A DNA stretch of 64,000 nucleotides from Elainella sp. Prado103 (GTDB lineage: Bacteria; Cyanobacteriota; Cyanobacteriia; Elainellales; Elainellaceae), in NCBI GenBank assembly GCA_025454395.1, contig JALOOM010000046.1, forward strand, positions 1 to 64,000, given 5' to 3'. The translations under genes and the position numbers were made by a program. The notes beneath the pieces were generated by a model. The model made no database searches, was not told the origin of the DNA, and was given only the letters and a program-made list of their open reading frames with translations. Positions 2,174 to 21,583 of the stretch are shown here, piece after piece (position 1 is the first letter of the stretch; each line of letters begins with the position of its first letter).

Positions 2174-5100
2174 TTATCCCTCGGGTTGATCGGCTGCCTT
2201 GCGAGCGGCCAGATACTCATATAGATGCCAGCGATCGTTCACATCAGCTTGCGCTGCTTGCAGGAGGCGTTTGGCATCGGCGGGTTTGCTCTTGGTCAGC
2301 ATCTTAAACCGATTTTCCTCATACATCGATTGGCTCACCGGACGTTTGGGGGCTCCCGTATCGAGATGGAGGGGGTTTTTACCTTCTGCTGTGAGGGCAG
2401 GATTGTAGCGATAGAGCAACCAGCGACCACTTTCCACCACCGCCTTCTGATGGGTCATCGCCGTTTGCATGTTGATTCCATGGGCAATGCAATGGCTATA
2501 GGCAATGATCAAAGATGGCCCATTGTAGGCTTCGGCCTCTAGAAAGGCTCGGAGCGTATGTTCATCCTTGGCTCCCATGGCAACACTAGCGACATAAACA
2601 TTACCGTAGGTCATAGCGATCATGCCCAAATCTTTCTTGGGTGCGGGTTTACCCCCTGCAGCAAACTTAGCCACAGCACCGCGAGGTGTAGCTTTTGAAG
2701 ATTGCCCTCCCGTATTAGAATACACTTCTGTATCCATTACGAGAATATTCACGTTACGACCACTGGCAATTACGTGATCAAGCCCACCAAAGCCAATATC
2801 GTAAGCCCAACCGTCACCGCCAATAATCCAAACACTCTTCTTGACTAGATAATCTGCTACTTTCTCAAGCTGTTTTGCAATTGGAGACTGGAGGGTTTGC
2901 AGAGACTGTTTCAGGGTTTCAACTCGTTGCCGCTGCTCCCAAATATCTGCCTCCGATCGCTGTTCTGCGGCGAGAATTTCTGCGACAAAATTATCTCCAA
3001 ATTCGCTGCTCAGTTGTTGAAGCAATTCTGCTGCAAATTGGGCTTGTTTATCTACCGAAATGCGGAACCCTAAGCCAAATTCCGCATTGTCTTCAAAGAG
3101 GCTATTCGACCAGGCTGGGCCACGCCCATCAGCATTTTTAGTCCAGGGTGTGGTGGGTAAGTTGCCGCCATAAATGGAGGAACAGCCCGTGGCATTGGCT
3201 ACCAACATCCGATCCCCGAACAGTTGGGTGAGTAGCTTCAAATACGGGGTTTCACCACATCCAGCACAGGCTCCTGAGAATTCGAATAGGGGTTCTTGCA
3301 GTTGTTGCTGCCGAATCAGATTGAGTTTCAGCGATCGGCGATCAGGATTGGGCAAACTCAAGAAGAAATCCCAATTCTCGCGTTCCTGTTCCCGCAGGGG
3401 CAACTGAGGAGCCATATTGATCGCCTTTTGGGAAGGCATCGATTTGTTTTTAGCCGGACAGATATCCACGCAAATGCCGCATCCTGTACAGTCCTCTGCT
3501 GCAACCTGGATCGTAAATTTAGTTGCAGCAAAGTCATGATCGCGAGCATTCGCCGATTTGAAGGTGGCAGGTGCATTATCCAGAGCATCTGGCTCATAAA
3601 CTTTGCCGCGAATCACACTGTGAGGACAAACCATAATACATTTGCCACACTGAATACACACATTGGGATCCCAAACGGGAATCTCCTGAGCAATATTGCG
3701 CTTCTCCCATTGGGTCGTGCCAGTTGGATAGGTGCCATCAATTGGCAGCGCACTCACTGGCAGATCATCGCCCTGAGAAGCGATCATTTTGCCTAACACC
3801 TCTCGCACAAAGGCAGGAGCAGCATCAGGGATAGGGGCAGGACGGGTAATCGTGCTGGTAACTGCCAAGGGAATTGTCACTTCATAGAGGTTTTCCAGCG
3901 TGTTATCAACGGCTTGGAGGTTTAAGCGAACAATTTCAGCTCCTTTTTTACCGTAGGTTTTTTCGATCGATTTTTTGATTTTTTCGATCGCTTCCTCGCG
4001 TGGTAACACACCCGCTAAGGCAAAGAAGCAGGTTTGCATCACGGTGTTAATCCGTCCACCCATGCCGTTGTCACGCGCCACCTGATTGGCGTTGATCACA
4101 TAGACTTTGATCTGCTTACGGATGATTTGCTCCTGCACTTCGATCGGTAGGTGATCCCAAACTTCATCTGGATCGTAGGGGCTATTCAGTAAGAAGGTGG
4201 CTCCCTGAGTTGCTGATTCCAATACATCAAGCCGTTCTACAAAATTCCATTGGTGGCAGCCAATAAAGTTCGCTTGCCTGATCAGATAGGTAGAACGAAT
4301 GGGAGTTGATCCAAACCGCAGGTGAGAGACGGTGATCGAGCCGGATTTTTTTGAGTCATAGACAAAATATCCCTGAGCATAGTTATCAGTTTCTTCGCCG
4401 ATAATCTTGATCGAGTTTTTGTTGGCTCCCACAGTTCCATCTGCCCCTAAGCCATAGAACATTGCTCGCACAACATTCGTAGGTTCTGTCGAAAACTGGG
4501 GATCATAATCGAGAGACGTGAGCGTGACATCATCATGGATGCCGATCGTGAAATGATTTTTCGGTTTGGGTGGGTGTAAATGGTCAAACACCGCTTTGAT
4601 CATGGCTGGGGTAAATTCTTTAGAAGAGAGCCCATAGCGTCCGCCCACCACGGTAGGTAAGGTGCCTGTCCAGGCTTCATGCAAAGCAGTGACGACATCT
4701 AAGTACAGGGGCTCACCCCCCGCTCCGGGCTCCTTGGTGCGATCGAGGACGGCGATCTTTTGCACAGTTTTGGGCAGGGCTGCCACCAATTTTTCTGCCG
4801 ACCAGGGGCGATAGAGCCGCACCTTTAGCACACCAACCTTGTCGCCCGTGGGCAGCAGCGCATCGACGGTTTCATGAACCGCTTCACAGCCCGATCCCAT
4901 TAAAATGATCACACGCTCAGCATCGGCAGCCCCGTGATATTCAAAGAGCTGGTAATGCCGCCCAGTTAAGGTGCCAAATCGATCCATCGCTTGCTGCACC
5001 ATGTCTGGGCAGGTGTCGTAGAACGAGTTCACCGTTTCGCGAGCCTGAAAATAGACATCTGGATTTTGGGCCGTGCCCCGTAAAACCGGACGATCGGGAG

Positions 5101-5728
5101 TCAGGGAGCGATCCCGATGGGCAAACACCCATTCATCCTCGATCATGCCTCGAAACTCCTCCCGATCCACAAGAGCAATTTTTTGCACTTCATGAGAGGT
5201 ACGGAAGCCATCGAAGAAGTGAATGAACGGCAGGCGAGATTGCAAGGTAGCCGCATGGGCGATCAGCGCAAAGTCTTGGGCTTCTTGAACCGAGGCAGAA
5301 CAGAGCAAGACAAAACCTGTCCCCCGCACCGCCATCACATCACTGTGATCGCCAAAAATTGACAATCCTTGGGCGGCTAACGAACGAGCTGCAACATGAA
5401 TGACAGCACTGGTTAATTCGCCAGCAATCTTATAGAGATTCGGGATCATCAGTAATAATCCCTGGGAGGCAGTGAATGTGGTCGTTAGCGATCCCGTTTG
5501 TAGCGATCCATGCACCGCTCCTGCGGCTCCCCCTTCGCTTTGCATTTCAACCACACTCGGCAGGGTGTTCCAGAGATTCAACCGTCCTTCTGATGCCCAT
5601 GCGTCTGCCCATTCACCCATCGGCGAGGCGGGGGTAATGGGGTAAATCGCAATGACTTCACTCAATGCGTAGGCGACGCGAGCAACAGCCTCGTTGGCAT
5701 CTAATGTTGCATGGGTTTTGCTAGTCAT
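2174..5728 (-). CDS. nifJ: pyruvate:ferredoxin (flavodoxin) oxidoreductase
   Basis: This protein oxidises pyruvate plus CoA to acetyl-CoA and CO2 and passes electrons to ferredoxin or flavodoxin. From the chosen start it is 1184 residues, the usual length of single-chain enzymes. In order it shows the N-terminal pyruvate-binding domain (YPITPASPMGEWADAW), the second domain with EPGAGGEPLYLDV, a two-cluster ferredoxin domain at about 690-760 (CIQCGKCIMVCP and CTGCGICVDICP), and the C-terminal thiamine-diphosphate domain with CAGCGETPY near 825 and GGDGWAYDIGFGG near 977. I chose the ATG at 5728 because AAGGA lies 8 bases upstream and the family similarity begins there; the frame stays open to 5797. 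It is divergent from the hox genes across a 1.86-kb spacer. Confidence 0.97.
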   Translation of the reverse strand: MTSKTHATLDANEAVARVAYALSEVIAIYPITPASPMGEWADAWASEGRLNLWNTLPSVVEMQSEGGAAGAVHGSLQTGSLTTTFTASQGLLLMIPNLYKIAGELTSAVIHVAARSLAAQGLSIFGDHSDVMAVRGTGFVLLCSASVQEAQDFALIAHAATLQSRLPFIHFFDGFRTSHEVQKIALVDREEFRGMIEDEWVFAHRDRSLTPDRPVLRGTAQNPDVYFQARETVNSFYDTCPDMVQQAMDRFGTLTGRHYQLFEYHGAADAERVIILMGSGCEAVHETVDALLPTGDKVGVLKVRLYRPWSAEKLVAALPKTVQKIAVLDRTKEPGAGGEPLYLDVVTALHEAWTGTLPTVVGGRYGLSSKEFTPAMIKAVFDHLHPPKPKNHFTIGIHDDVTLTSLDYDPQFSTEPTNVVRAMFYGLGADGTVGANKNSIKIIGEETDNYAQGYFVYDSKKSGSITVSHLRFGSTPIRSTYLIRQANFIGCHQWNFVERLDVLESATQGATFLLNSPYDPDEVWDHLPIEVQEQIIRKQIKVYVINANQVARDNGMGGRINTVMQTCFFALAGVLPREEAIEKIKKSIEKTYGKKGAEIVRLNLQAVDNTLENLYEVTIPLAVTSTITRPAPIPDAAPAFVREVLGKMIASQGDDLPVSALPIDGTYPTGTTQWEKRNIAQEIPVWDPNVCIQCGKCIMVCPHSVIRGKVYEPDALDNAPATFKSANARDHDFAATKFTIQVAAEDCTGCGICVDICPAKNKSMPSQKAINMAPQLPLREQERENWDFFLSLPNPDRRSLKLNLIRQQQLQEPLFEFSGACAGCGETPYLKLLTQLFGDRMLVANATGCSSIYGGNLPTTPWTKNADGRGPAWSNSLFEDNAEFGLGFRISVDKQAQFAAELLQQLSSEFGDNFVAEILAAEQRSEADIWEQRQRVETLKQSLQTLQSPIAKQLEKVADYLVKKSVWIIGGDGWAYDIGFGGLDHVIASGRNVNILVMDTEVYSNTGGQSSKATPRGAVAKFAAGGKPAPKKDLGMIAMTYGNVYVASVAMGAKDEHTLRAFLEAEAYNGPSLIIAYSHCIAHGINMQTAMTHQKAVVESGRWLLYRYNPALTAEGKNPLHLDTGAPKRPVSQSMYEENRFKMLTKSKPADAKRLLQAAQADVNDRWHLYEYLAARKAADQPEG

Positions 5729-5990
5729 AACATGAATCCTTTGGGTGGAAATCGCCATGGGTGAACGATCGGAGTAATCGGGGTAATGGCAGAGCAAGAG
5801 TCGCTAAATCTAAAAATTAATTTGATTGATCGACTTAGATCATCGTAGCCAATAAATAATCAAACCCAATAATCGAACAATAAGCTGTTTGTGGTTGTTT
5901 GATTGATCACACTGTTAATATCACAAATATCGCGCTGTTGATGCTGTTCAAGTTGAGTTAGCAAACCGTTCTGAATCAGCTTGGATCGAT

Positions 5991-7588: not shown

Positions 7589-8149
7589 ATGGTTATGCAA
7601 TCTTCAACTACCGCGCAATCCCCATCTGAGCAGCCTCCCGCGACACAACCCAAAGTAGCCAAGACAAAATCCGAACATCCCAGTGGCGATCGTCGCTTTA
7701 AGACACTCGATATGACGATGAAGCGACACCAATACAAGCCGGATGCGCTGATTGAGGTGTTGCATAAAGCACAGGAATCTTTTGGCTACCTAGAAGAAGA
7801 TGTGCTGACTTACATTGCTCGGGGGCTAAAGCTGCCGCTTAGCAAAGTCTATGGTACAGCCACGTTCTACCATCTGTTTTCCCTCAAACCCAGCGGGGCC
7901 CATACTTGTGTCGTTTGTTTAGGCACAGCTTGTTATGTCAAAGGGAGTAACAAAGTGGCCGAGGAACTCCAGCAAGAACTGGGCATTCAAATGGGCGAAA
8001 CTACACCCGATGGCAAGATTTCCCTCATGGCTGCTCGTTGTATTGGGGCTTGTGGAATTGCTCCGGCAGTGGTGTTTGACGGAACGGTAGCGGGTAAGCA
8101 GCAGCCGGAGATGGCACTCGCCCGGATTAAAGATTGGGAAGCTGAATGA
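7589..8149 (+). CDS. hoxE: bidirectional hydrogenase diaphorase subunit HoxE
   Basis: HoxE is the thioredoxin-like [2Fe-2S] subunit of the NAD(P)-linked bidirectional [NiFe] hydrogenase, homologous to NuoE. The 186-residue protein shows the helical YKPDALIEVLHKAQ start of the family, the KVYGTATFYHLF segment, and the four cluster cysteines as CLGTAC and CIGAC. About 40 residues rich in Pro, Ser and Lys precede the conserved part, so a later start at one of the internal Met codons (MTMKRHQYK) is possible. The ATG at 7589 has AGGA 5 bases upstream. It is the first gene of the hox run and lies directly behind the AGTACCA repeat array. Confidence 0.96.
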   Translation: MVMQSSTTAQSPSEQPPATQPKVAKTKSEHPSGDRRFKTLDMTMKRHQYKPDALIEVLHKAQESFGYLEEDVLTYIARGLKLPLSKVYGTATFYHLFSLKPSGAHTCVVCLGTACYVKGSNKVAEELQQELGIQMGETTPDGKISLMAARCIGACGIAPAVVFDGTVAGKQQPEMALARIKDWEAE

Positions 8150-8204: not shown

Positions 8205-9851
8205 ATGGATTTATCTGAACTACTAGACATTGCCACAGCCCATCAGGCAAGTCAAAAACCAATCCGAGTACATTGTTGTACATCAACAGGATGTCGGGCT
8301 GCAAAGGCGTTAGAGGTATTTAAAAATTTGAAAACGGCAGTCGATGATGAGGAATTAAGCGATCGGGTGAATGTGGTCGGGGTGGGTTGTATGGGGTTTT
8401 GTGGTCGAGGCCCTCTCGTGCAAATTGACCCGGATCAGATGCTCTATGAAGAGGTTAAACCCGATGAAGCTGCCAGTATTATTGGAGCGATTAAAGGGGG
8501 CACGGCGATCGCCCTAAAAGGAGATGTGCAGCATCCGTTCTTTGCCCGTCAAGTCAAGATTGTGCGAGAACATAGTGGCAAAGTGGATCCAGAAAGTATT
8601 GAAGATTATATTGCGGTGGGAGGATATCGATCGCTCTATAAGGCGATTTATGAGCTATCTCCAGCCGAGGTGGTGGATGAAATTACCCGCAGTGGTTTGC
8701 GCGGTCGGGGTGGGGGTGGCTATCCTACCGGATTGAAATGGGCAACGGTGGCCAAAATGCCTGGGGATCAAAAATATGTGATTTGTAATGGTGACGAGGG
8801 CGATCCAGGGGCATTTATGGATCGGAGCGTCTTAGAAAGTGATCCCCATCTAGTATTAGAAGGGATGGCGATCGCAGGCTATGCGATTGGAGCGAATCAC
8901 GGCTTTCTCTATGTGCGGGCTGAATATCCACTGGCAATTCAGCGCCTCCAGAAAGCGATCCAACAGGCGAAAAAGTACGGGTTACTCGGTAGCCAAATTT
9001 TTGAATCCCCCTTTGACTTTAAGGTAGATATTCGGATTGGGGCCGGGGCGTTTGTCTGCGGAGAAGAAACGGCCTTGATTCAATCGATCGAAGGAGGACG
9101 CGGCAATCCCCGCCCACGCCCACCCTATCCGGCTCAATCTGGGTTATGGAAGTGCCCTACCTTGATTAATAATGTGGAAACCTTTGCGAACATCAGCGCC
9201 ATTATTCGAGAAGGTTCAGACTGGTATGCCAGCATTGGCACCGAGAAAAGCAAGGGCACTAAAATCTTTGCACTGACGGGTAAAATTCGTAACAATGGCT
9301 TGATCGAAGTGCCGATGGGGATCACGCTCCGCGAAATTGTGGAGGAGATGGGAGGAGGGGTGCCAGATGGTGAAGTAAAAGCGGTGCAAACGGGTGGGCC
9401 ATCGGGGGGATGTATTCCGGCCTCCCTGCTTGATACGCCGGTTGATTATGATTCTCTGGTCGCGATCGGTTCCATGATGGGATCGGGTGGCATGGTGGTG
9501 ATGGATCAAGAGACCAACATGGTGGAAGTGGCCCAGTTTTACATGGAGTTTTGCCGAGGAGAAACCTGTGGTAAATGTGTGCCCTGCCGAACCGGGACGG
9601 TGCAGCTCTATGCCTTATTGACCAAACTGCTCAGACATCAAGCCACACAAGCAGATCTAGACAAGTTAGAATCACTCTGTTATATGGTGCAAGAAACCAG
9701 TCTCTGTGGCTTGGGGATCAGTGCTCCTAATCCAATTTTGAGCACTTTGCGCTACTTCAATCATGAATATATTGAGTTACTCCAAACACCCAGTTACCTA
9801 AATGAAAAAGTGAATGACAAAGTAAATGGCAAAGTAACAGCAGAGCGATAA
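8205..9851 (+). CDS. hoxF: bidirectional hydrogenase diaphorase subunit HoxF
   Basis: HoxF binds FMN and NAD(P)H and moves electrons between nucleotide and the iron-sulfur chain. The 548-residue protein has an N-terminal thioredoxin-like [2Fe-2S] domain ([11 protein letters not shown], then CMGFCGRGP). A NuoF-like core follows with the NADH-site glycine loop [13 protein letters not shown], the FMN-site [13 protein letters not shown] and [14 protein letters not shown]. Near the C-terminus is the [4Fe-4S] motif [10 protein letters not shown] with the distal SLCGLG. The length is normal. A purine-rich ribosome site (GAGGAGAGAGAGGA) precedes the ATG. It starts 55 bases after hoxE; a 214-base gap without a gene separates it from hoxU. 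Confidence 0.97.
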
Positions 9852-10065: not shown

Positions 10066-10782
10066 ATGTCAGTCAAAACCTTAAAAATTGATGGCATCGA
10101 TATTGCGATCGAGGAAGGTACCACCCTTCTGCAAGCGGCTCGGGCAGCCGGGGTTCCCATTCCGACCCTATGTCATTTAGATGGGGTTGCAGATGTGGGA
10201 GCCTGTCGCCTGTGTCTGGTAGAAGTGGGAGGCAGTCGGCGGTTGTTGCCTGCCTGTGTGACGGAGGTGGCAGAGGGGATGGAGGTACAAACCAACACGC
10301 CCAAACTGCAAGAATATCGTCGGATGGCGGTAGAACTGCTGTTTTCGGAAGGCAACCATGTCTGTGCAGTTTGTGTAGCCAACGGCAATTGTGAACTGCA
10401 AGATGTGGCGATCCAAGTTGGCATGGATCACAGTCGCTTTACCTATCGATTTCCCGATCGAGGCGTGGATGTCTCCCATCAGCAATTCGGGATTGACCAT
10501 AATCGCTGCATTCTTTGTACGCGCTGCGTTCGGGTTTGCGACGAAATTGAAGGAGCGCATGTGTGGGATGTGGCTCAACGAGGTGCCGCCTGCTATATCG
10601 TGTCTGGGTTAAATCAACCTTGGGGCGAGGTGGATGCCTGTACATCCTGCGGCAAATGTGTGGATGCCTGTCCCACCGGAGCCATTTTCCGGAAAGGTAG
10701 CACCACGGGTGAAAAAGAGCGGGATCGCGCCAAGCTGGAATTTTTGGTCACGGCACGGGAGAAACACGAATGGACAAGGTAA
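10066..10782 (+). CDS. hoxU: bidirectional hydrogenase diaphorase subunit HoxU
   Basis: HoxU is the iron-sulfur relay between HoxF and the HoxYH hydrogenase dimer and is related to the N-terminal part of NuoG. The 238 residues show a plant-type [2Fe-2S] site (CHLDGVADVGACRLC and LPAC), the C/H-rich stretch HVCAVCVANGNCELQ, and two [4Fe-4S] motifs, CILCTRCVRVC and CTSCGKCVDACP. The last 13 bases overlap hoxY, which implies translational coupling. Normal length and no defects seen. Confidence 0.97.
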   Translation: MSVKTLKIDGIDIAIEEGTTLLQAARAAGVPIPTLCHLDGVADVGACRLCLVEVGGSRRLLPACVTEVAEGMEVQTNTPKLQEYRRMAVELLFSEGNHVCAVCVANGNCELQDVAIQVGMDHSRFTYRFPDRGVDVSHQQFGIDHNRCILCTRCVRVCDEIEGAHVWDVAQRGAACYIVSGLNQPWGEVDACTSCGKCVDACPTGAIFRKGSTTGEKERDRAKLEFLVTAREKHEWTR

Positions 10783-11318
10783 AATTTGCCACGGTTTGGC
10801 TGGCGGGCTGTTCCGGTTGCCATATGTCGTTTCTGGATATGGATGAGTGGCTGATTGAACTGGCCAAGCATGTCGAGGTGGTCTATAGTCCGGTGGGGTC
10901 TGACTTAAAACATTATCCAGAAAATGTTGATGTCTGCCTCGTGGAAGGTGGAGTGGCGAATCAGGATAACCTGGAGCTGATTTTACAAGTGCGACGGCAG
11001 ACAAAGCTGCTGATTTCCTTTGGAGACTGTGCGGTAACCGCAAATGTACCTGCGATGCGCAATATGTTAGGTGGCGCAGAACCAGTCTTGAAGCGAGCTT
11101 ATCTAGAATTAGGAGATGTTGCCCCCCAATTGCCCCATGAACCAGGGATTGTGCCAGAATTGCTCGATCGGGTGTTGCCGGTGCATGAAGTGGTGCCGGT
11201 AGACATTTACATGCCAGGATGCCCACCCCCTGCCGATCGGATCCGGGCTACCCTTGAACCCCTGCTGCGCGGGGAAATGCCCAAGATGGAAGGGCGAGAA
11301 ATGATCAAGTTCGGCTAA
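10770..11318 (+). CDS. hoxY: [NiFe]-hydrogenase small subunit HoxY
   Basis: HoxY carries the proximal iron-sulfur cluster and forms the hydrogenase module with HoxH. The 182-residue protein has the proximal cluster cysteines in WLAGCSGCHMSF, plus SFGDCAVTANVP and YMPGCPPP. Like other soluble bidirectional enzymes it lacks the twin-arginine signal and the extra C-terminal clusters of membrane-bound uptake enzymes. It overlaps the end of hoxU and precedes hoxH by 58 bases. Confidence 0.97.
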   Translation: MDKVKFATVWLAGCSGCHMSFLDMDEWLIELAKHVEVVYSPVGSDLKHYPENVDVCLVEGGVANQDNLELILQVRRQTKLLISFGDCAVTANVPAMRNMLGGAEPVLKRAYLELGDVAPQLPHEPGIVPELLDRVLPVHEVVPVDIYMPGCPPPADRIRATLEPLLRGEMPKMEGREMIKFG

Positions 11319-11376: not shown

Positions 11377-12804
11377 ATGGCGAAAACAGTTGTCATTGAT
11401 CCAATTACCCGGATTGAGGGTCATGCCAAGATCTCCGTCTATCTCAATGATGCCGGAACGGTCGAAGATGCGCGGTTTCATGTGGTGGAATACCGGGGAT
11501 TCGAGAAGTTTTGTGAAGGTAGACCCTTTACAGAAATGGCTGGCATTACGGCGCGGATTTGTGGAATTTGCCCGGTAAGCCACCTGCTGGCAGCCGCCAA
11601 AACCGGCGATAAAATCCTGGCAGTCAAGGTGCCTCCAGCGGCCGAGAAACTGCGACGATTGATGAATTTGGGACAGATCACCCAATCCCATGCCCTATCG
11701 TTTTTCCACCTCAGTAGTCCTGACTTTCTGTTGGGTTGGGATAGTGATCCAGCCCAGCGTAACGTGTTTGGATTGATTGCTTCGGATCCAGACCTGGCTA
11801 GAGCAGGCATTCGGTTGCGGCAGTTTGGACAAACGGTGATTGAACTCTTGGGAGCCCGCAAAATTCACGCGGCTTGGACGGTACCAGGTGGTGTGCGTTC
11901 ACCTTTATCAGAAGAAGGGCGGCAGTGGATTCTCGATCGCTTGCCAGAGTCATTTGAAACGGTCAATCTTGCCCTCAACCTGTTCAAAAACCTGATCGAT
12001 AGCCAGCTTCAGGAAGAGGTGCAGGTATTCGGAGCATTCCCCTCTCTATTCATGGGATTGGTCAGCAAAACTGGCAATTGGGAGCATTACGACGGGCATC
12101 TGCGCTTTACCGATAGTGCGGGCAACATCGTAGCTGATCATCTGAGTGAAGATGACTATGCTGACTTTTTAGGGGAAGCAGTCGAGAAATGGTCTTACCT
12201 CAAATTCCCTTACTACAAGCCTTTGGGTTATCCAGATGGGATTTATCGAGTTGGGCCATTGGCTCGCTTAAATGTCTGCCACCAGATTGGCACCGAGGCT
12301 GCTGATCGCGAGTTGCAAGAATTTCGCGATCGAGCTGGTGGGGTGCCGACTTCTTCTTTCTTCTATCACTATGCTCGATTGATAGAAATCTTGACTGCGT
12401 TAGAGCATATCCAAATCCTGATGGATGATCCAGATATTGTCTCGAATCGAGTTCGTGCCACCGGAGGGGTTAACCAGTTAACCGGCATTGGCGTGAGTGA
12501 AGCCCCGCGCGGCACCCTATTCCATCACTACCAGGTCGATGAAAATGGGCTGATTCGTAAGGTTAACCTGATCATTGCCACGGGACATAATAACTTGGCC
12601 ATGAATCGCACGATCACCCAAATTGCCAAACAATATGTTCGTGGGCCAGAGATCGCGGAAGGAATGCTCAACCGGGTGGAAGCAGGCATTCGTTGTTATG
12701 ATCCCTGTCTATCTTGCTCTACCCATGCTGCTGGACAGATGCCGCTGCATATCCAGATCGTGGCGGCGGATGGACAGGTTGTAAATGAGGTGTATCGTCA
12801 TTAA
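11377..12804 (+). CDS. hoxH: [NiFe]-hydrogenase large subunit HoxH
   Basis: HoxH holds the Ni-Fe active site that makes or splits H2. The 475 residues show both ligand motifs: [10 protein letters not shown] (Cys62 and Cys65) and DPCLSCSTH near the C-terminus. Eighteen or so residues follow the final His, so it is an unprocessed precursor whose tail must be removed after nickel insertion; the matching protease gene hoxW lies 2.3 kb downstream. All metal ligands are intact, so the enzyme should be active. The ATG follows GGGAG at suitable distance. Confidence 0.98.
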
Positions 12805-12932
12805 AGCTCGCATTAAAGTTCATCGGTTGCAGGCAGGTTATAGGAGCTGATCGATCGAAAATTATCGCCTTTTCTATCACTTGCCTTCTCTGTTTATCAT
12901 TCATCTTGATTCATTCTTCATCTTTTCAAGCT

Positions 12933-13205
12933 ATGGTAAAAGAACCTTTAATTCTCTGTATGGGATCGGCCTGCCATCAATTGGGGGTGTATGAGGTTTT
13001 GCCTAAATTACAGTCTCTGATTCGAGAATACCAACTCGATGATTGCTTGGTGCTCAAAGGTTCCTTCTGTCTGGAAACCTGTAGTGATGGCATCACCATG
13101 AGGTTTCGTGACCACTGCTTTATTAAAATTAATCCGCAAAATATTGAGGAGAAGTTTGTGCAAGAAATTCTACCGGCGGTGCAAGCAGTGGGTAGTTGTT
13201 CCTAG
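12933..13205 (+). CDS. small thioredoxin-like [2Fe-2S] protein
   Basis: From the ATG at 12933 this is a 90-residue protein. It has the four-cysteine pattern of thioredoxin-like [2Fe-2S] ferredoxins: Cys9-X4-Cys14 (CMGSAC) and Cys46-X3-Cys50 (CLETC). It resembles the isolated cluster domain of HoxE/NuoE without the N-terminal helical part. A TTG at 12906 would add nine residues with no family support. Small proteins of this type sit beside [FeFe] hydrogenases in anaerobes; here the gene lies 128 bases after hoxH and before a PAS and a phosphatase gene. A role as redox partner or sensor input is inference. Confidence 0.85.
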   Translation: MVKEPLILCMGSACHQLGVYEVLPKLQSLIREYQLDDCLVLKGSFCLETCSDGITMRFRDHCFIKINPQNIEEKFVQEILPAVQAVGSCS

Positions 13206-13284
13206 ATGCGGTGAATGCAGAGATCGATGGCTGGAAGGTTCGATCGTTCAGATCTCTATAAATTTGCGTTGATGTGATGTTGAT

Positions 13285-13797
13285 ATGATAATGTCCAATG
13301 ATCACAATCACCTCTGGAAATTGCTGTGGGAATACGAGCCAAATGGCTTGATTGCGGTCGATCCAGACATGTATGTCAGGCTGGTGAATCCGGCATTCTG
13401 CAAAATGTTTCAGACCCAACCGGAAGATATCATCGGTCAACCGGCTGGTGTGATCCTGGATGATATTGAAGATTTTAAGACTGCCTGGAAAACGAATTCA
13501 GTCGTTCGTAGAAAATTTCGAGAATATCCCCAATATCAGCTCTATCTGAATCAGACGATTTTTTCGATCGAGGATGAAGGAATTATTGCCTCAATTATGG
13601 TAGATATCAGCCATGATTTAGAACGGAAGCGAGAGCTAGAAAAATTAAAACGGGAAACGATCAAGAAAGTTAACGAAGTGGTCGATCATCAGATGAAAGT
13701 GGTACAAGAAATTGCTGGACTTTTGGGGGAAACTACCGCCGATACGAAAGTGAGTCTACTGAAAATTATTCAAATGATCGAGCATGATGTGATTTGA
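13285..13797 (+). CDS. PAS-domain protein with C-terminal coiled coil
   Basis: This 170-residue protein starts with one PAS domain (about 10-115; NGLIAVDPDMYVRLVNPAF, then IIGQPAG). A charged helix follows (ERKRELEKLKRETIKKV), then a conserved-looking tail with QEIAGLLGETTADTKVSLL. It has no kinase, GGDEF or output domain of its own. From memory, the helix and LLGETTA tail resemble PAS-containing hydrogenase-associated proteins of clostridia; no search was possible. No heme or flavin ligand can be named from sequence. It lies 79 bases after the [2Fe-2S] gene and 21 bases before the phosphatase gene, so the three look co-transcribed. The PAS call is firm; the signal and partner are unknown. 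Confidence 0.88.
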   Translation: MIMSNDHNHLWKLLWEYEPNGLIAVDPDMYVRLVNPAFCKMFQTQPEDIIGQPAGVILDDIEDFKTAWKTNSVVRRKFREYPQYQLYLNQTIFSIEDEGIIASIMVDISHDLERKRELEKLKRETIKKVNEVVDHQMKVVQEIAGLLGETTADTKVSLLKIIQMIEHDVI

Positions 13798-13818
13798 AGG
13801 TAGTCTAGTTGTGAGCCT

Positions 13819-14997
13819 ATGTATTGTCCCATCACGGTCGATAACTTTTTGGATGTTTATACCTCTAGCCTCAATAAGAAAGGAGAAGAACTTTGTGGTG
13901 ACAAAATTAAATATCGTAGAACAGGCAAGAAACTGACGATCGTGCTTTCAGATGGTTTGGGCAGCGGGGTCAAGGCGAATATTCTCGCGACTTTGACGAC
14001 GGAAATTTTGCTGACCATGCTGGATGCCGATGTGCCACTGGAAGAAGTGCTCAAAACGGTGATTGCAACGCTGCCGATTTGCAAGGTACGCAAGATCGCT
14101 TATTCAACGTTTACGATCGTTCAGGTGGATGTAGAAACGAATCGCTTCACAGTGATCAATTTTGATAATCCAGCCTGTTTTTATTTTCAACAAGGGAAGG
14201 TTGCCAAGCTGGAAACCAGAACGGAGAATATTTTAGATCGTAAAATATCCATTTCTGAAGGGTGTTTGCAGCGAGGTGATTTTCTGGGTGCGGTCAGTGA
14301 TGGTGTCCTGTATGCTGGTATGGGAGTGACCCTAAACTTTGGCTGGGGCTGGGATGATATTGCCAACTATATTGAGCAGATCTTTACGCGGAAGGTGCAT
14401 ACTGCACGATCAATCATCCAGGAAGTGATTCAAAAAACCCATTCGCTTTATCAAGGGGAGGTAGGGGATGATGCCACAATTGTTGGGATTTATATCCGTC
14501 GCCGAAATCCATTGATGATTTTCACAGGCCCTCCGTTAGATCGCGAAAAAGATGTAACTTATATCGAAAGATTACTGGATTTTAAAGGCAAAAAAATTGT
14601 TTGCGGTGGCACGACTGGGAATATTGTTGCAAGTTATTTAAATGAATCGATTGAAACTGATCTGTCTACTCTCCGCAAAGATGTCCCACCGATCGGAATA
14701 TTGAGCTATGTCGATCTACTGACAGAAGGTATCCTAACCATCTCCAAAGCAACAGAGTATATCAAGAATTGCGATTGTGATTTGTCACGGTTGCGATTTG
14801 ATCATAATGGGGCTTACTTACTCACGCAAGAAATCTTGCAAGCCGACTCGATTCTTTTTCTGGTTGGTCAGAGCATTAATGAGTTCTACCAAAATCCTTT
14901 ATTACCCAAAAACATCTCGATTCGTCGAAGTCTGATCGAAGATCTAGTGCAGTTTCTGCGCAGCCGGCAAAAAGAGGTCGTGGTTGAATATTGTTAA
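13819..14997 (+). CDS. SpoIIE-type PP2C phosphatase with extra C-terminal domain
   Basis: The 392-residue protein has an N-terminal PP2C/SpoIIE domain (about 10-230) with all metal-site motifs in place: GDK at 27-29, SDGLGSG at 44-50, SDG at 160-162 and GDDAT at 216-220. It should be an active Ser/Thr phosphatase. The opening SLNKKGEELCGDK and the KANILATLT helix resemble phosphatases found beside sensory [FeFe] hydrogenases in Firmicutes (recalled, not searched). Residues 235-392 form a second domain starting FTGPPLDREKD that I cannot assign. It follows the PAS gene by 21 bases. No kinase or anti-sigma partner is encoded nearby, so the substrate is open. Confidence 0.88.
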   Translation: MYCPITVDNFLDVYTSSLNKKGEELCGDKIKYRRTGKKLTIVLSDGLGSGVKANILATLTTEILLTMLDADVPLEEVLKTVIATLPICKVRKIAYSTFTIVQVDVETNRFTVINFDNPACFYFQQGKVAKLETRTENILDRKISISEGCLQRGDFLGAVSDGVLYAGMGVTLNFGWGWDDIANYIEQIFTRKVHTARSIIQEVIQKTHSLYQGEVGDDATIVGIYIRRRNPLMIFTGPPLDREKDVTYIERLLDFKGKKIVCGGTTGNIVASYLNESIETDLSTLRKDVPPIGILSYVDLLTEGILTISKATEYIKNCDCDLSRLRFDHNGAYLLTQEILQADSILFLVGQSINEFYQNPLLPKNISIRRSLIEDLVQFLRSRQKEVVVEYC

Positions 14998-15065
14998 TAG
15001 AATATCGACGGAATATTTATAGAATATTCTTAATGTAATATTTATAGAATATTGATGGGAGTTGC

Positions 15066-15575
15066 ATGGATCAAGGTATAGGCTGTCTTGTGATCGGCTA
15101 TGGTAATACACTGCGAAGTGATGATGCGGCTGGTCAACAGATTGCTGATAGGGTTGCCGCGTGGAATTTAGAGCGAGTGCATTCGCTCGCAGTACACCAA
15201 TTGACACCTGAACTGGCCGAGCCACTTGCAATGGCTCAAATGGCGATCTTTATTGATGTGTATGCAGTTCAGGAGAAGACGGCATCAGAGAAGACGGCAT
15301 CGGTGCAAGTTATCGAACTTTCTCCCACGCTGGAATCTAATTATACAACTAGAATTGGGCATTCTGCCGACCCGCGATCGCTCTTAATGCTAGCACAACA
15401 AGTTTATGGGACTTGCCCACCCAGTTGGTGGGTTCTGGTGCCTGCTATCAACTTTGAGTTTGGTGAAGCATTATCCTCACTGACCCAACAAGGAGTTGTA
15501 GTGGCTCTGGAGCAGGTCAGGCAATTGATCCAAGATCAACTCAGCATTACGGAAAACGTGGCTGACTCTGTATGA
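15066..15575 (+). CDS. hoxW: HoxH maturation endopeptidase
   Basis: HoxW-type proteases cleave the C-terminal tail of HoxH after nickel is inserted. The 169-residue protein starts with the family motif GYGNTLRSDDAAG (the usual DDG reads DDA). It carries the expected later acidic and histidine ligand positions in FIDVYAV and GHSADP. A 15-base in-frame duplication (15273-15302) repeats the pentapeptide EKTAS in a surface loop. The 68 bases before it contain several copies of AGAATATT. Its place behind the [2Fe-2S]-PAS-PP2C trio rather than next to hoxH is the notable point. Confidence 0.93.
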   Translation: MDQGIGCLVIGYGNTLRSDDAAGQQIADRVAAWNLERVHSLAVHQLTPELAEPLAMAQMAIFIDVYAVQEKTASEKTASVQVIELSPTLESNYTTRIGHSADPRSLLMLAQQVYGTCPPSWWVLVPAINFEFGEALSSLTQQGVVVALEQVRQLIQDQLSITENVADSV

Positions 15576-15602
15576 CTTCCCACTTCCCACTTCCCACTTC
15601 CC
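15575..15602. repeat. heptamer tandem repeat ACTTCCC x4
   Basis: Four exact copies of the 7-base unit start on the last base of the hoxW stop codon. This is a classic cyanobacterial short tandemly repeated repetitive sequence. On the + strand it is a pyrimidine-only tract apart from the A of each unit. Confidence 0.95.
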
Positions 15603-15646
15603 ACCTCTCCTCTCCTCGACTTCTACTATAATGTGTAGCACTGAGA

Positions 15647-16159
15647 ATGCCTGAATCTATGATGCCTGAACCAGATGATACCGAAAATGGTCAGATCCAG
15701 CAGGAAATTTTAATGGGACGACAGTTCTCTCTGGCAGAGGTGATCGGTCGCGAATGCGGCTCTTTTTTGAAGGGAGAATCGCCCATTCCTAAACTGTTGC
15801 AAGCAAAGGCTGAAATTAATCTCTATATCGATCGAAATTTAACAGATTCATCAGGGGTCTTAAAGGCAGTTTTACAAACCTTAGTCGCGATCGATGAGGT
15901 TGATCTTCGCTGCCACCTCAATGCGCCTCTGGATGCCTTACGAGTATTTTTGGAGGGTTTGGTGCGTAACCCTGAGCTGCTGTATGAGTTTGTCAAACAA
16001 GTTGATGTTAGGTGGGGGCAAATTTACGGAGAACGTCCCTATTTTCAACAACCTGGACAACTGCCCCATCCAGAGGATGAATATACTCATGAATCAGTTT
16101 ATCAACAAATTGTTGAATTGCTAGGTTCGATCCCCATAAATGATCCAATGGGTGAGTGA
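15647..16159 (+). CDS. conserved-looking hypothetical protein after hoxW
   Basis: I do not recognise this 170-residue protein. It has an acidic N-terminus, a central helix-rich part with GSFLKGESPIPKLLQ and DLRCHLNAPLDALRVF, and no signal peptide or membrane segment. It follows hoxW by 71 bases on the same strand and could be the last gene of the hydrogenase transcript, though the heptamer tract lies between. The frame is well filled and its composition looks protein-like, so I think it is real. No function is offered. Confidence 0.7.
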   Translation: MPESMMPEPDDTENGQIQQEILMGRQFSLAEVIGRECGSFLKGESPIPKLLQAKAEINLYIDRNLTDSSGVLKAVLQTLVAIDEVDLRCHLNAPLDALRVFLEGLVRNPELLYEFVKQVDVRWGQIYGERPYFQQPGQLPHPEDEYTHESVYQQIVELLGSIPINDPMGE

Positions 16160-18824: not shown

Positions 18825-19898
18825 TTAACAATACTCCAATTCGACTTGAGAATTGGCTATACTGTTGCTTGGCAAAGAATGATGCAAGTAACCTGGAAGT
18901 TCTAGTTTATCGGCATCAACTTCAGTGTAGACGACTCCTCGTTGCCAACAGACCCACTTGAGAATTCGCAAAAATTCTCCATAAGCTGAATCTAATGACT
19001 GTTTTTGGAGTAGCTTCTTGATCCGGGTTTTGAAACTGAGCTTTTCAGCTCGAATTACCCCCGCTCGATCGCAGAGATGATGTGCCAACTTATAAAAAAA
19101 GTCCTGGCGACAGTTATGGATATGCTCGCGCAACTTAGCTAGCTTTTGATGGGCTTTATGCCAATTGTTTGACCCTTTCATTTTGTGATTCGCTCTTTGT
19201 TGCAGCAATTTCAGCTTGCGTTGGAGATTCACAAAGAATTGGGGGGTAGCAATCAGTTCTCCATCTGAAGTCGCGAGATAGTGTTGTAACCCGCCAGTGA
19301 TTTCTAAGGCTTGACCATTGGGCATGACCTCAGGTACTAAAACATTACACTGTAGGGTAATCATGACGTACCACCCTGAAGCCCGTTTGACGACCCGCGC
19401 CTGCTTGATCTCAAACCCCTCTGGAATTGGGCGAGACATCCGCATTTTCACAAAGCCGACTCCTGGTAACTTGATGTGGCTCCCTCGGATGGGATTCTCT
19501 CCTAACTGGGGGAATAACAGCGATCGAATTCGTCCCGGTTTCTTAAATCGAGGGAATCCATGACCTTGTTTCCACATCGAAACAAATGATTGGTCGAGCC
19601 GCCTCAACACTTGTTGTAGCATTTGAGCATTTGCTTTCGCAAGATCATCATAAACCTTGCGTGCTTGCGTCAAAGCTTTGCATTGGCTGGCAAAGGATGG
19701 ACGAGGAGCATCTGCAGGAATAATATACTCGGATCTGAGCGAACAGGCATTAATCGGACAGGAACGAGACTGATACCAGTCTTTACGCTCAGCTAATGCA
19801 AAATTCCAGACTTTACGGGAAGTCTCTAACCACTCCTCATAAAGCTTGACTTGAGCTGGTTTGAGCCGTAGTCGATAAGTGTAAGTCACATTCAACAT
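18825..19898 (-). pseudogene. tnpB: decayed TnpB (IS200/IS605 OrfB) relic
   Basis: The open frame of 357 residues is plainly a TnpB of the IS1341 type: an N-terminal YTYRLRLKPAQVKLYEEWLE helix, NFALAERKDW, and GFPRFKKPGRIRS. However, the RuvC-I position that should read GIDxG reads EITGGLQHYLATSDGE, so the catalytic Asp appears replaced. RuvC-II Glu (AEKLSF) is kept. The C-terminus stops at VDADKLELPGYLHHS and lacks the CxxC zinc finger and RuvC-III Asp. A shifted fragment of the usual TnpB tail lies just beyond the stop (18761-18796), which points to an internal deletion and frameshift. No tnpA is near. Likely nuclease-dead debris; a domesticated protein is less likely. The start is taken at the ATG for MLNVTYTYRL. 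Confidence 0.85.
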
Positions 19899-21583
19899 GT
19901 CCGAACTATGACCCCAAGAATGACAGAACTGAAAAGACACTGACAATATTGTTCAGTAAATTGAAAAGGCTATGCCTTAATTCAGCAGATCCCGAACCAA
20001 AGATCTTGAATTAAAACATCCTTTAGCATCAGTCAATGGATCTATTAATAGATCTATTAATGGATCCTCTAACCGCTCCTCATAGGTGCGCACAAGTATC
20101 ATTGCCAATAGAAGCCATGACTTTTGCTTAGAATCATCGGACTCTTGTGACTAGAGATCGGGATGCCAAGCTGAGAGCAGACCCAGCCAGGATGATGGCA
20201 TTGAGGTGGTGAATTAAAGGTGGATAGGCGTAATCGAATAGAACTGTAGCGGACGATTGAATCAGGAAAAAATTGGCTGCTGCAAACTGGGAGTTGTAAA
20301 AATTAAGCTGTTACTAGAAGCTCGAAAAAGCTGAAGGGTGAGTTTTTGTCGTCTCATCATCAATGCTCTCTCAGCTTCTAGCTCAAACTATAAATTTGCT
20401 CCTATACAAATCCTTGGCTGAGTTCGTCTGGCTAAGACTTCAATCAATTGCAACAGGTTTCTATACAATAGCAAAGCATAAGTAATCATCTGAGATCAAG
20501 AGAGAAATGAGCCTCTATGAAAACTTTATACAGAAGTGAATTCCTTTTGTACTCGATCCCATCTTTTTGAAATCAAATCCGGTTTATGGCGGCAGTCTTG
20601 ATATCGCCAGAAACCTATTTCACAGGTAGGTGAAAACAGTTATCTCTCGTGCTTTAAAGCATTTATTTTGGCTATTAACTTTAATCATTCTAAAATCATG
20701 AGATCATCCTAGATTTTTAACTTTTACATCTATAATTTTGAAAGAATAGTGTGTGCCGCTAAACATAAGAGGGTCGGAAAAGTAGGAAGGCAAGAAACCC
20801 TATTGTTCTGATACCCTGTTTATGGGATTTGTTCATCGCCCTTTTCATGAAGGCGGCTCGATTGGTGTAGAGATTATCATGCTCATTTAGTCAAATCCAT
20901 CTTGATCTAGGGTGAGAGCATCTCGCTGAATGAACTATGGTTGATGGCAGTGCTGTGATTCAGATCAAGCGATCGACTGGGAGAGTTTACTTGCAAAGAA
21001 CTCAGTTTAAATATCCATACCTCAAGTTAGTTGCCTAGATCATTGAATTAATTGCAGTAGCGCAAGTTGAGATCAATTTTTGTCTGATAATAGCTGCTAG
21101 ATTGCTGGTTATAGGATTTTCGTAAAATGCAATTTTCAATGCCTGACTTCACTTGAGATACTGAATTGGCAAAATTTGCCTGATTCACACTGCTTGATCT
21201 ATAAGGTTCAATTTGGCAGGGGCTTAAAGTTCTAATCGACACAGCTTAAAAAGTTATTCACTATATACTTTTGATCCTTATTCAATAAAAATCATATTCT
21301 ACTGACTCTCCCATCTCAATATCTACTGACTCTCCCATTTGAGCCTCTACTGACTATATAGATTCTTTCTAGAGATGTCCCAAGTTAAGTGAAAACGATA
21401 GCTTTATTAAATTATCGTGTAGTTTTGTTGTAGGTCTCGACTCTGGATCTAAAGGTGGTTAGGATTTGAAAAGCGTTCAGGGAATTCCGTATTTTGCCGG
21501 TTGATCCTGATAGCTCTAAGGAATATTACTTAGATATAAGTAAGGTGTCCTGGTTTACTTGCAGTTGGCTTATCTGAAATACA

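Follow-up and report, generated by a model that had tools for sequence, protein, structure and literature searches.

Why does the hydrogenase cluster of the cyanobacterium Elainella sp. Prado103 carry three additional genes, for a [2Fe-2S] protein, a PAS protein and a phosphatase, between the gene of the large hydrogenase subunit (hoxH) and that of its maturation protease (hoxW)? An earlier note on this DNA had seen in them a hydrogenase-linked signalling system resembling modules beside sensory [FeFe]-hydrogenases of anaerobic Firmicutes, and had proposed a relay from the [2Fe-2S] protein through the PAS protein to dephosphorylation of a target. These ideas were followed up here by computational analysis of the window, i.e. 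the whole stretch of 64,000 nucleotides (positions 1 to 64,000 of contig JALOOM010000046.1), and of its relatives in other genomes.

Layout of the locus

The ORF coordinates bear out that three genes of the same strand, hereafter the trio (fdx, PAS and PP2C), lie between hoxH and hoxW. The features of the locus are as follows:

2174-5797, minus strand: nifJ, pyruvate:ferredoxin oxidoreductase (PFOR), divergent from hoxE
7589..8149, plus strand: hoxE, diaphorase subunit with a [2Fe-2S] cluster (NCBIfam HoxE, 277 bits, cut-off 224)
8205..9851, plus strand: hoxF, FMN/NAD diaphorase subunit (Complex1_51K and NADH_4Fe-4S)
10066..10782, plus strand: hoxU (NCBIfam HoxU, 425 bits, cut-off 333)
10770..11318, plus strand: hoxY, [NiFe]-hydrogenase small subunit (Oxidored_q6)
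11377..12804, plus strand: hoxH, [NiFe]-hydrogenase large subunit (NiFeSe_Hases)
12933..13205 (ATG 12933), plus strand: fdx, free thioredoxin-like [2Fe-2S] protein, 90 aa, with CX4C and CX3C ligands (homology to [2Fe-2S] proteins upstream of HydS and to a Thermotoga maritima HydA domain)
13285..13797 (ATG 13285 or 13291), plus strand: PAS protein with a helical tail, 168-170 aa (BLASTP to the C-terminal part of HydS; structure model)
13678..13770, plus strand: conserved tail motif of the PAS protein, residues 130-160, QM..VQEIAGLLGETTADTK (conservation; in common with HydS)
13819..14997, plus strand: SpoIIE-type PP2C serine phosphatase (predicted) with a second alpha/beta domain, 392 aa (SpoIIE, 62.9 bits, Pfam cut-off 25; full-length Clostridia homologues; structure model)
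14521..14994, plus strand: second domain of the PP2C protein, residues 235-392 (kept in Clostridia)
15066..15575, plus strand: hoxW, HoxH maturation protease (TIGR00072, 49.7 bits, cut-off 47.45)
15647-16159, plus strand: 170-aa ORF after hoxW, matching no Pfam or NCBIfam family and missing near the loci of most relatives
18825-19946, minus strand: IS605-type OrfB (TnpB-like) gene, a few kb downstream of the hox cluster

The hoxH-fdx gap is 128 bases, and those between fdx and PAS and between PAS and PP2C are, as noted earlier, 79 and 21. The hoxEFUYH set is complete, with HoxE and HoxU above their equivalog cut-offs and the domains of HoxF, HoxY and HoxH present, which places the enzyme among the Group 3d bidirectional Hox hydrogenases. 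The separate promoters and terminators that the earlier note had named as evidence against a linked unit did not appear: in the region 12780-15700, which includes the hoxH-trio junction, there was no terminator-like site, and promoter-like matches did not exceed those in shuffled sequence. Absence of such signals across hoxH, the trio and hoxW fits co-transcription. No RNA family of Rfam was recognized within the 64,000-nt window. In several loci bearing the trio, ORFs of about 1220 aa (PFOR-sized) lie just downstream of hoxW.

Kinship of the trio with HydS modules

Pfam, alignment to SpoIIE and homologues bear out how the earlier note had read the three proteins: fdx encodes a [2Fe-2S] protein, the second gene a PAS domain followed by a helical tail, and the third a PP2C of the SpoIIE type whose metal ligands are intact. 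The last of these is a predicted serine phosphatase of the SpoIIE/PPM type, whose ligands D28, D45/G46, D161 and D217/D218 are all present in the alignment to SpoIIE and invariant across cyanobacteria and Clostridia. Its structure model (mean pLDDT 80) has the PP2C fold, with Z of about 21 to SpoIIE and 3ke6 (the VIA-align structure rows cover almost solely residues 1-229), and opens directly with this fold, bearing no regulatory helix of its own. The second domain (235-392) is conserved in Clostridia and belongs to no Pfam family; its profile match to phosphoheptose isomerase is weak (E 0.01).

The PAS protein scores 28.9 bits with PAS_9 of Pfam (cut-off 27) and aligns to HydS from residue 409 of the latter to its end (BLASTP E 2e-21, 33% identity; E 7e-20 for a second HydS match). 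The earlier note was thus right about a PAS domain with a tail, but missed its identity as the C-terminal half of HydS. Modelling gives a PAS domain followed by two helices, 107-146 (40 residues) and 149-167, the second of which bears the conserved motif (pLDDT 61-65). The tail reads QMKVVQEIAGLLGETTADTK in the window protein and QMRIVQEIASLLGETTAETK in HydS. Across 24 cyanobacteria the motif reaches a mean identity of 88%, with 18 of its 31 columns invariant, against 60% and 13 of 90 columns for the PAS core in the same alignment. The best-conserved part of the protein is therefore the tail motif, which is common to HydS, and we propose that it could serve as a phosphatase-docking element.

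No H-cluster domain (PF02906) is fused to the window protein, which begins at its PAS domain (HydS of Ruminococcus albus scores 167 bits for this domain); the [4Fe-4S] motif found just before PAS in HydS (PF04060, FeS) is missing as well, and the [4Fe-4S] ferredoxin domain of HydS is without counterpart. Judged by its sequence, the protein is the counterpart of the C-terminal part of HydS (PAS and tail) minus the hydrogenase domain. The trio is not to be classed among the sensory [FeFe]-hydrogenases, as their defining domain was looked for and is missing.

Could the PAS protein itself be the sensor? Its Cys37 (window positions 13399-13401) is invariant in the 24 cyanobacterial sequences and absent from HydS, and it is a possible redox-active residue. 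PAS domains commonly sense alone, and Hox is used in dark anoxia, so that a cue of O2 or redox would be useful. In this scenario the PAS domain would respond to O2, redox or a small ligand, perhaps via the lineage-specific cysteine, fdx would be accessory, and Hox would be only the output, with PP2C adjusting hox expression or Hox activity. However, conservation peaks in the tail and not in the pocket, and fdx, needless for a self-sufficient sensor, is always co-inherited; we consider this scenario rather unlikely. The cyanobacterial PAS domain could still bind a ligand of its own, which would count against the explanation that we favour below.

The fdx product stays under the Pfam cut-off (13.9 bits versus 24.8). 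Its homologues include the [2Fe-2S] proteins encoded ahead of HydS in Clostridia (E 5e-18 and 2e-13), and the solved structure that it matches best is that of the [2Fe-2S] domain at the C-terminus of T. maritima HydA (E 7e-6). The four cysteines of CX4C and CX3C are invariant in 24 cyanobacterial homologues. Given these cysteines and the HydA match, electron exchange between fdx and HoxEFU, a homologous diaphorase, or the ferredoxins of the latter is plausible.

Outside photosynthetic cyanobacteria, full-length PP2C homologues with both domains are common; in Clostridia they are about 33-45% identical over nearly the whole length, and the phylum of the Clostridia gives a match in 120 of 398 genomes. 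A HydS gene lies directly before PP2C in 39 of 40 fetched Clostridia loci and is itself preceded by a [2Fe-2S] gene in most; the order fdx, HydS, PP2C is annotated, for example, in R. albus 7 and Monoglobus pectinilyticus. In about 23 Clostridia loci the genes of HydC, HydB and HydA, counterparts of HoxE, HoxF and HoxU, adjoin. Non-photosynthetic members of the cyanobacterial phylum have fdx, HydS and PP2C in 10 of 10 loci, followed in most by an [FeFe] hydrogenase gene. The proposed likeness to modules beside sensory [FeFe]-hydrogenases is hence real, and more specific than had been claimed: it is kinship with HydS modules, and the phosphatase belongs with the phosphatases of HydS operons. 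One correction is that the trio is not confined to this genome; it is present in a subset of hox-bearing cyanobacteria.

Some neighbours of these modules deserve mention. The commonest other neighbour is a gene resembling that of the redox repressor Rex, seen at locus L134 and at 37 more Clostridia loci and labelled Rex in the R. albus record. In rumen-type Clostridia (L063, L066, L071, L096, L126, L136) a gene for an APH-type kinase precedes the module, often with adhE before the kinase. This kinase is a candidate counter-kinase for the phosphatase; it had no match in 27 cyanobacterial genomes, in a search run without a positive control. PP2C lacks an adjacent HydS in L210 (genome G398) and L064 (Acetoanaerobium noterae), and in Acetoanaerobium a match resembling the HydS PAS domain lies far off in the same record.

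Inheritance and origin of the trio

Among 390 Cyanobacteriia genomes PP2C was found in 26, in one copy each and at 62-100% identity, never at intermediate similarity, while hoxH (counted at E <= 1e-100) was found in 127. All 26 genomes with PP2C carry hoxH (Fisher p 3e-14, a value that ignores shared ancestry), and no hoxH-less genome of the 390 has PP2C. Both fdx and PAS are present in 26/26, including the scattered cases described below, and neither occurs in any of the 31 examined genomes that have a close hoxH and lack PP2C. As all 26 have the complete set, all 31 lack it and the scattered cases agree, the trio is inherited all-or-none and solely alongside Hox, also where its genes have become unlinked, in line with the view that it is hydrogenase-linked. 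The [FeFe] domain Fe_hyd_lg_C (PF02906) occurs in none of the 26 trio genomes (T. maritima served as a positive control).

The trio is contiguous and in the same order in 22 of the 26 genomes. It lies downstream of hoxH in 17 (G159 has intervening genes) and elsewhere in 5 (G016, G257, G269, G317, G363); such a degree of order argues against a chance arrangement. In family f36 the module is scattered: G388 has hoxH-fdx-PAS, G361 has hoxH-fdx, and G300 and G323 have fdx-PAS away from hoxH, PP2C being elsewhere. In total, 9 of the 26 genomes carry both PP2C and hoxH without linkage between them, and co-transcription is thus not required. A trio routinely away from any hydrogenase, which would have refuted the earlier note, was not found: no hoxH-less cyanobacterial genome of the sample has PP2C.

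The position bears on another possibility, namely that the trio acts directly on the enzyme. Here fdx would be an extra electron-transfer partner of Hox, comparable to the T. maritima HydA domain which it best matches, and PP2C would exert post-translational control by dephosphorylating Hox subunits or HoxH once processed by HoxW; a place between hoxH and hoxW, found in many genomes, would fit this. Yet adjacency to hoxW is lost where the trio moves, and in Clostridia fdx and PP2C accompany HydS whichever catalytic hydrogenase is nearby. We thus regard direct action as improbable, more so than sensing by the PAS domain itself.

One could also suppose that the trio has no function and is what remains of an [FeFe]-hydrogenase cluster acquired by transfer and retained through linkage, since the H-cluster domain is gone and single internal stops occur in PP2C of G257 and fdx of G361. 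All three genes are nevertheless intact in most genomes, their catalytic and ligand residues are invariant, and the trio persists after loss of linkage; on this conservation we reject a decaying passenger as very improbable. Distances of PAS, PP2C and HoxH correlate with each other (rho 0.74-0.88), which speaks for the explanation favoured below; those of fdx do so more weakly (rho 0.38-0.61), and their low value against HoxH (rho 0.38) speaks against it.

As to origin, in a midpoint-rooted PP2C tree with long branches the cyanobacterial sequences make up a single clade (100/100) whose neighbour is the main clade of Clostridia, and f47, a non-photosynthetic family of the cyanobacterial phylum, stands outside together with a deep HydS-bearing lineage; cyanobacteria group by Clostridia and not by f47 (96/92). 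Vertical descent from an ancestor of the phylum was considered, but the tree, its root being midpoint only, favours transfer. Because the outer lineages hold full HydS, it is simpler to suppose that the cyanobacterial line lost the [FeFe] head, a reading subject to the same rooting and long branches. In a contig scan the best 80 of 573 relatives came nearly all from gut Clostridia or from MAGs probably holding their DNA, and none of these 80 from named cyanobacteria or further phyla. The viral contigs held no relative. Three records named Bacteriophage sp., from human faeces (MT835503.1, MT835845.1, MT835859.1), contain full-length phosphatases 32-40% identical, probably as bacterial DNA.

Possible mechanism and known systems

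Homology to HydS, the missing [FeFe] domain and co-occurrence with hoxH in 26/26 genomes together indicate that the trio is a HydS-type module without its hydrogenase head, tied to Hox. Our best explanation joins this to a relay: a redox-signalling module of the HydS (HfsB/HfsC) type would have lost its own H2-sensing [FeFe] head, become tied to the bidirectional [NiFe] Hox, and would signal from fdx through PAS to PP2C. To the whole of it we assign a probability of roughly 0.5. The fdx protein would exchange electrons with HoxEFU or its ferredoxin pool and report the redox state of Hox or ferredoxin to the PAS domain. In SpoIIE and RsbP-type PP2Cs a regulatory helix packing on the switch helices does the switching (PMC5468089). 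As the PP2C model has no such helix and the tail helix of the PAS protein bears the conserved motif, the tail might supply the switch in trans by docking on the PP2C switch helices. PP2C, once switched, would dephosphorylate a protein adjusting hox expression, Hox activity or fermentative electron disposal; PFOR, encoded beside hoxE, and Hox itself are candidate targets.

With the head missing and the module usually beside Hox, the role of sensor may have passed to the cell's own hydrogenase. More tentatively, and with somewhat less confidence than in the explanation as a whole, we suggest that catalytic Hox doubles as an H2/redox sensor in place of the lost head, its electrons passing via fdx and PAS to a serine phosphatase in trans, so that H2 turnover would be coupled directly to dephosphorylation in an oxygenic phototroph.

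What is known of the related modules is instructive here. Deletion of hfsB, the HydS homologue of Thermoanaerobacterium, raised the adhE transcript and ethanol yield, while no such rise followed deletion of hfsC (the phosphatase), hfsD or the whole operon, and its authors concluded that the module regulates fermentation (PMC5707799); HfsC is a serine phosphatase homologue (PMC11837493). A finding on TamHydS, a related sensor without PAS, speaks against the relay: H2 does not reduce its C-terminal cluster by the output region (PMC13104023), so that even the parent HydS system has no established redox relay.

HydS modules are known from gut and soil anaerobes. We found no published description of the trio in cyanobacteria, headless and beside Hox, among the freely accessible papers searched, and an earlier account, which the earlier note had named as refuting its proposal, did not come to light. 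Phylum-wide hox surveys and studies of the Lyngbya hox genes name no phosphatase or PAS gene as part of the hox cluster (PMC5186783, PMC3858816, PMC2674450). A review from 2026 on redox signalling in cyanobacteria is likewise silent on PP2C and SpoIIE proteins (PMC13421787). The trio bears on how cyanobacteria sense hydrogen or fermentative electron pressure, and also on the signal output of HydS in anaerobes, for which recent work asks for interaction partners (PMC13104023). A natural headless version names the minimal signalling unit, i.e. a [2Fe-2S] protein, a PAS domain with its tail and a PP2C, and points to the tail as the phosphatase contact. The proteins are small and soluble and can be studied without H-cluster maturation. 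The trio would add a regulatory layer to photobiological hydrogen production.

Several known systems share parts of this design. RsbP/RsbQ of Bacillus subtilis likewise uses PAS, a helical linker (coiled coil) and a PPM phosphatase in a unit signalling energy state (PMC3183031); RsbP is, however, one polypeptide with an alpha/beta hydrolase partner, whereas in the trio PAS and PP2C are separate ORFs and the partner is a [2Fe-2S] protein. HoxBC-HoxJ, the regulatory [NiFe] H2 sensor of Ralstonia, also links a [NiFe] hydrogenase to a PAS protein, but through a dedicated non-catalytic hydrogenase and a histidine kinase (general knowledge; PMC5707799), while the trio goes with catalytic Hox and a serine phosphatase; Pfam finds no kinase domain in the trio, its output being PP2C. 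The small thioredoxin-like [2Fe-2S] fold recurs in T. maritima, in the C-terminal domain of HydA and in a free [2Fe-2S] protein encoded in its operon. Unlike fdx, which is a free protein, the HydA version is built into the catalytic enzyme. HydS/HfsB-HfsC of Clostridia (R. albus, Thermoanaerobacterium) agrees with the trio in the [2Fe-2S] protein, the PAS domain with its tail, the two-domain PP2C, the gene order and the adjoining catalytic hydrogenase. It differs in that HydS fuses an H-cluster domain and [4Fe-4S] clusters to PAS, both of which the trio lacks, and in that the partner of the trio is a [NiFe] Hox enzyme in an oxygenic phototroph.
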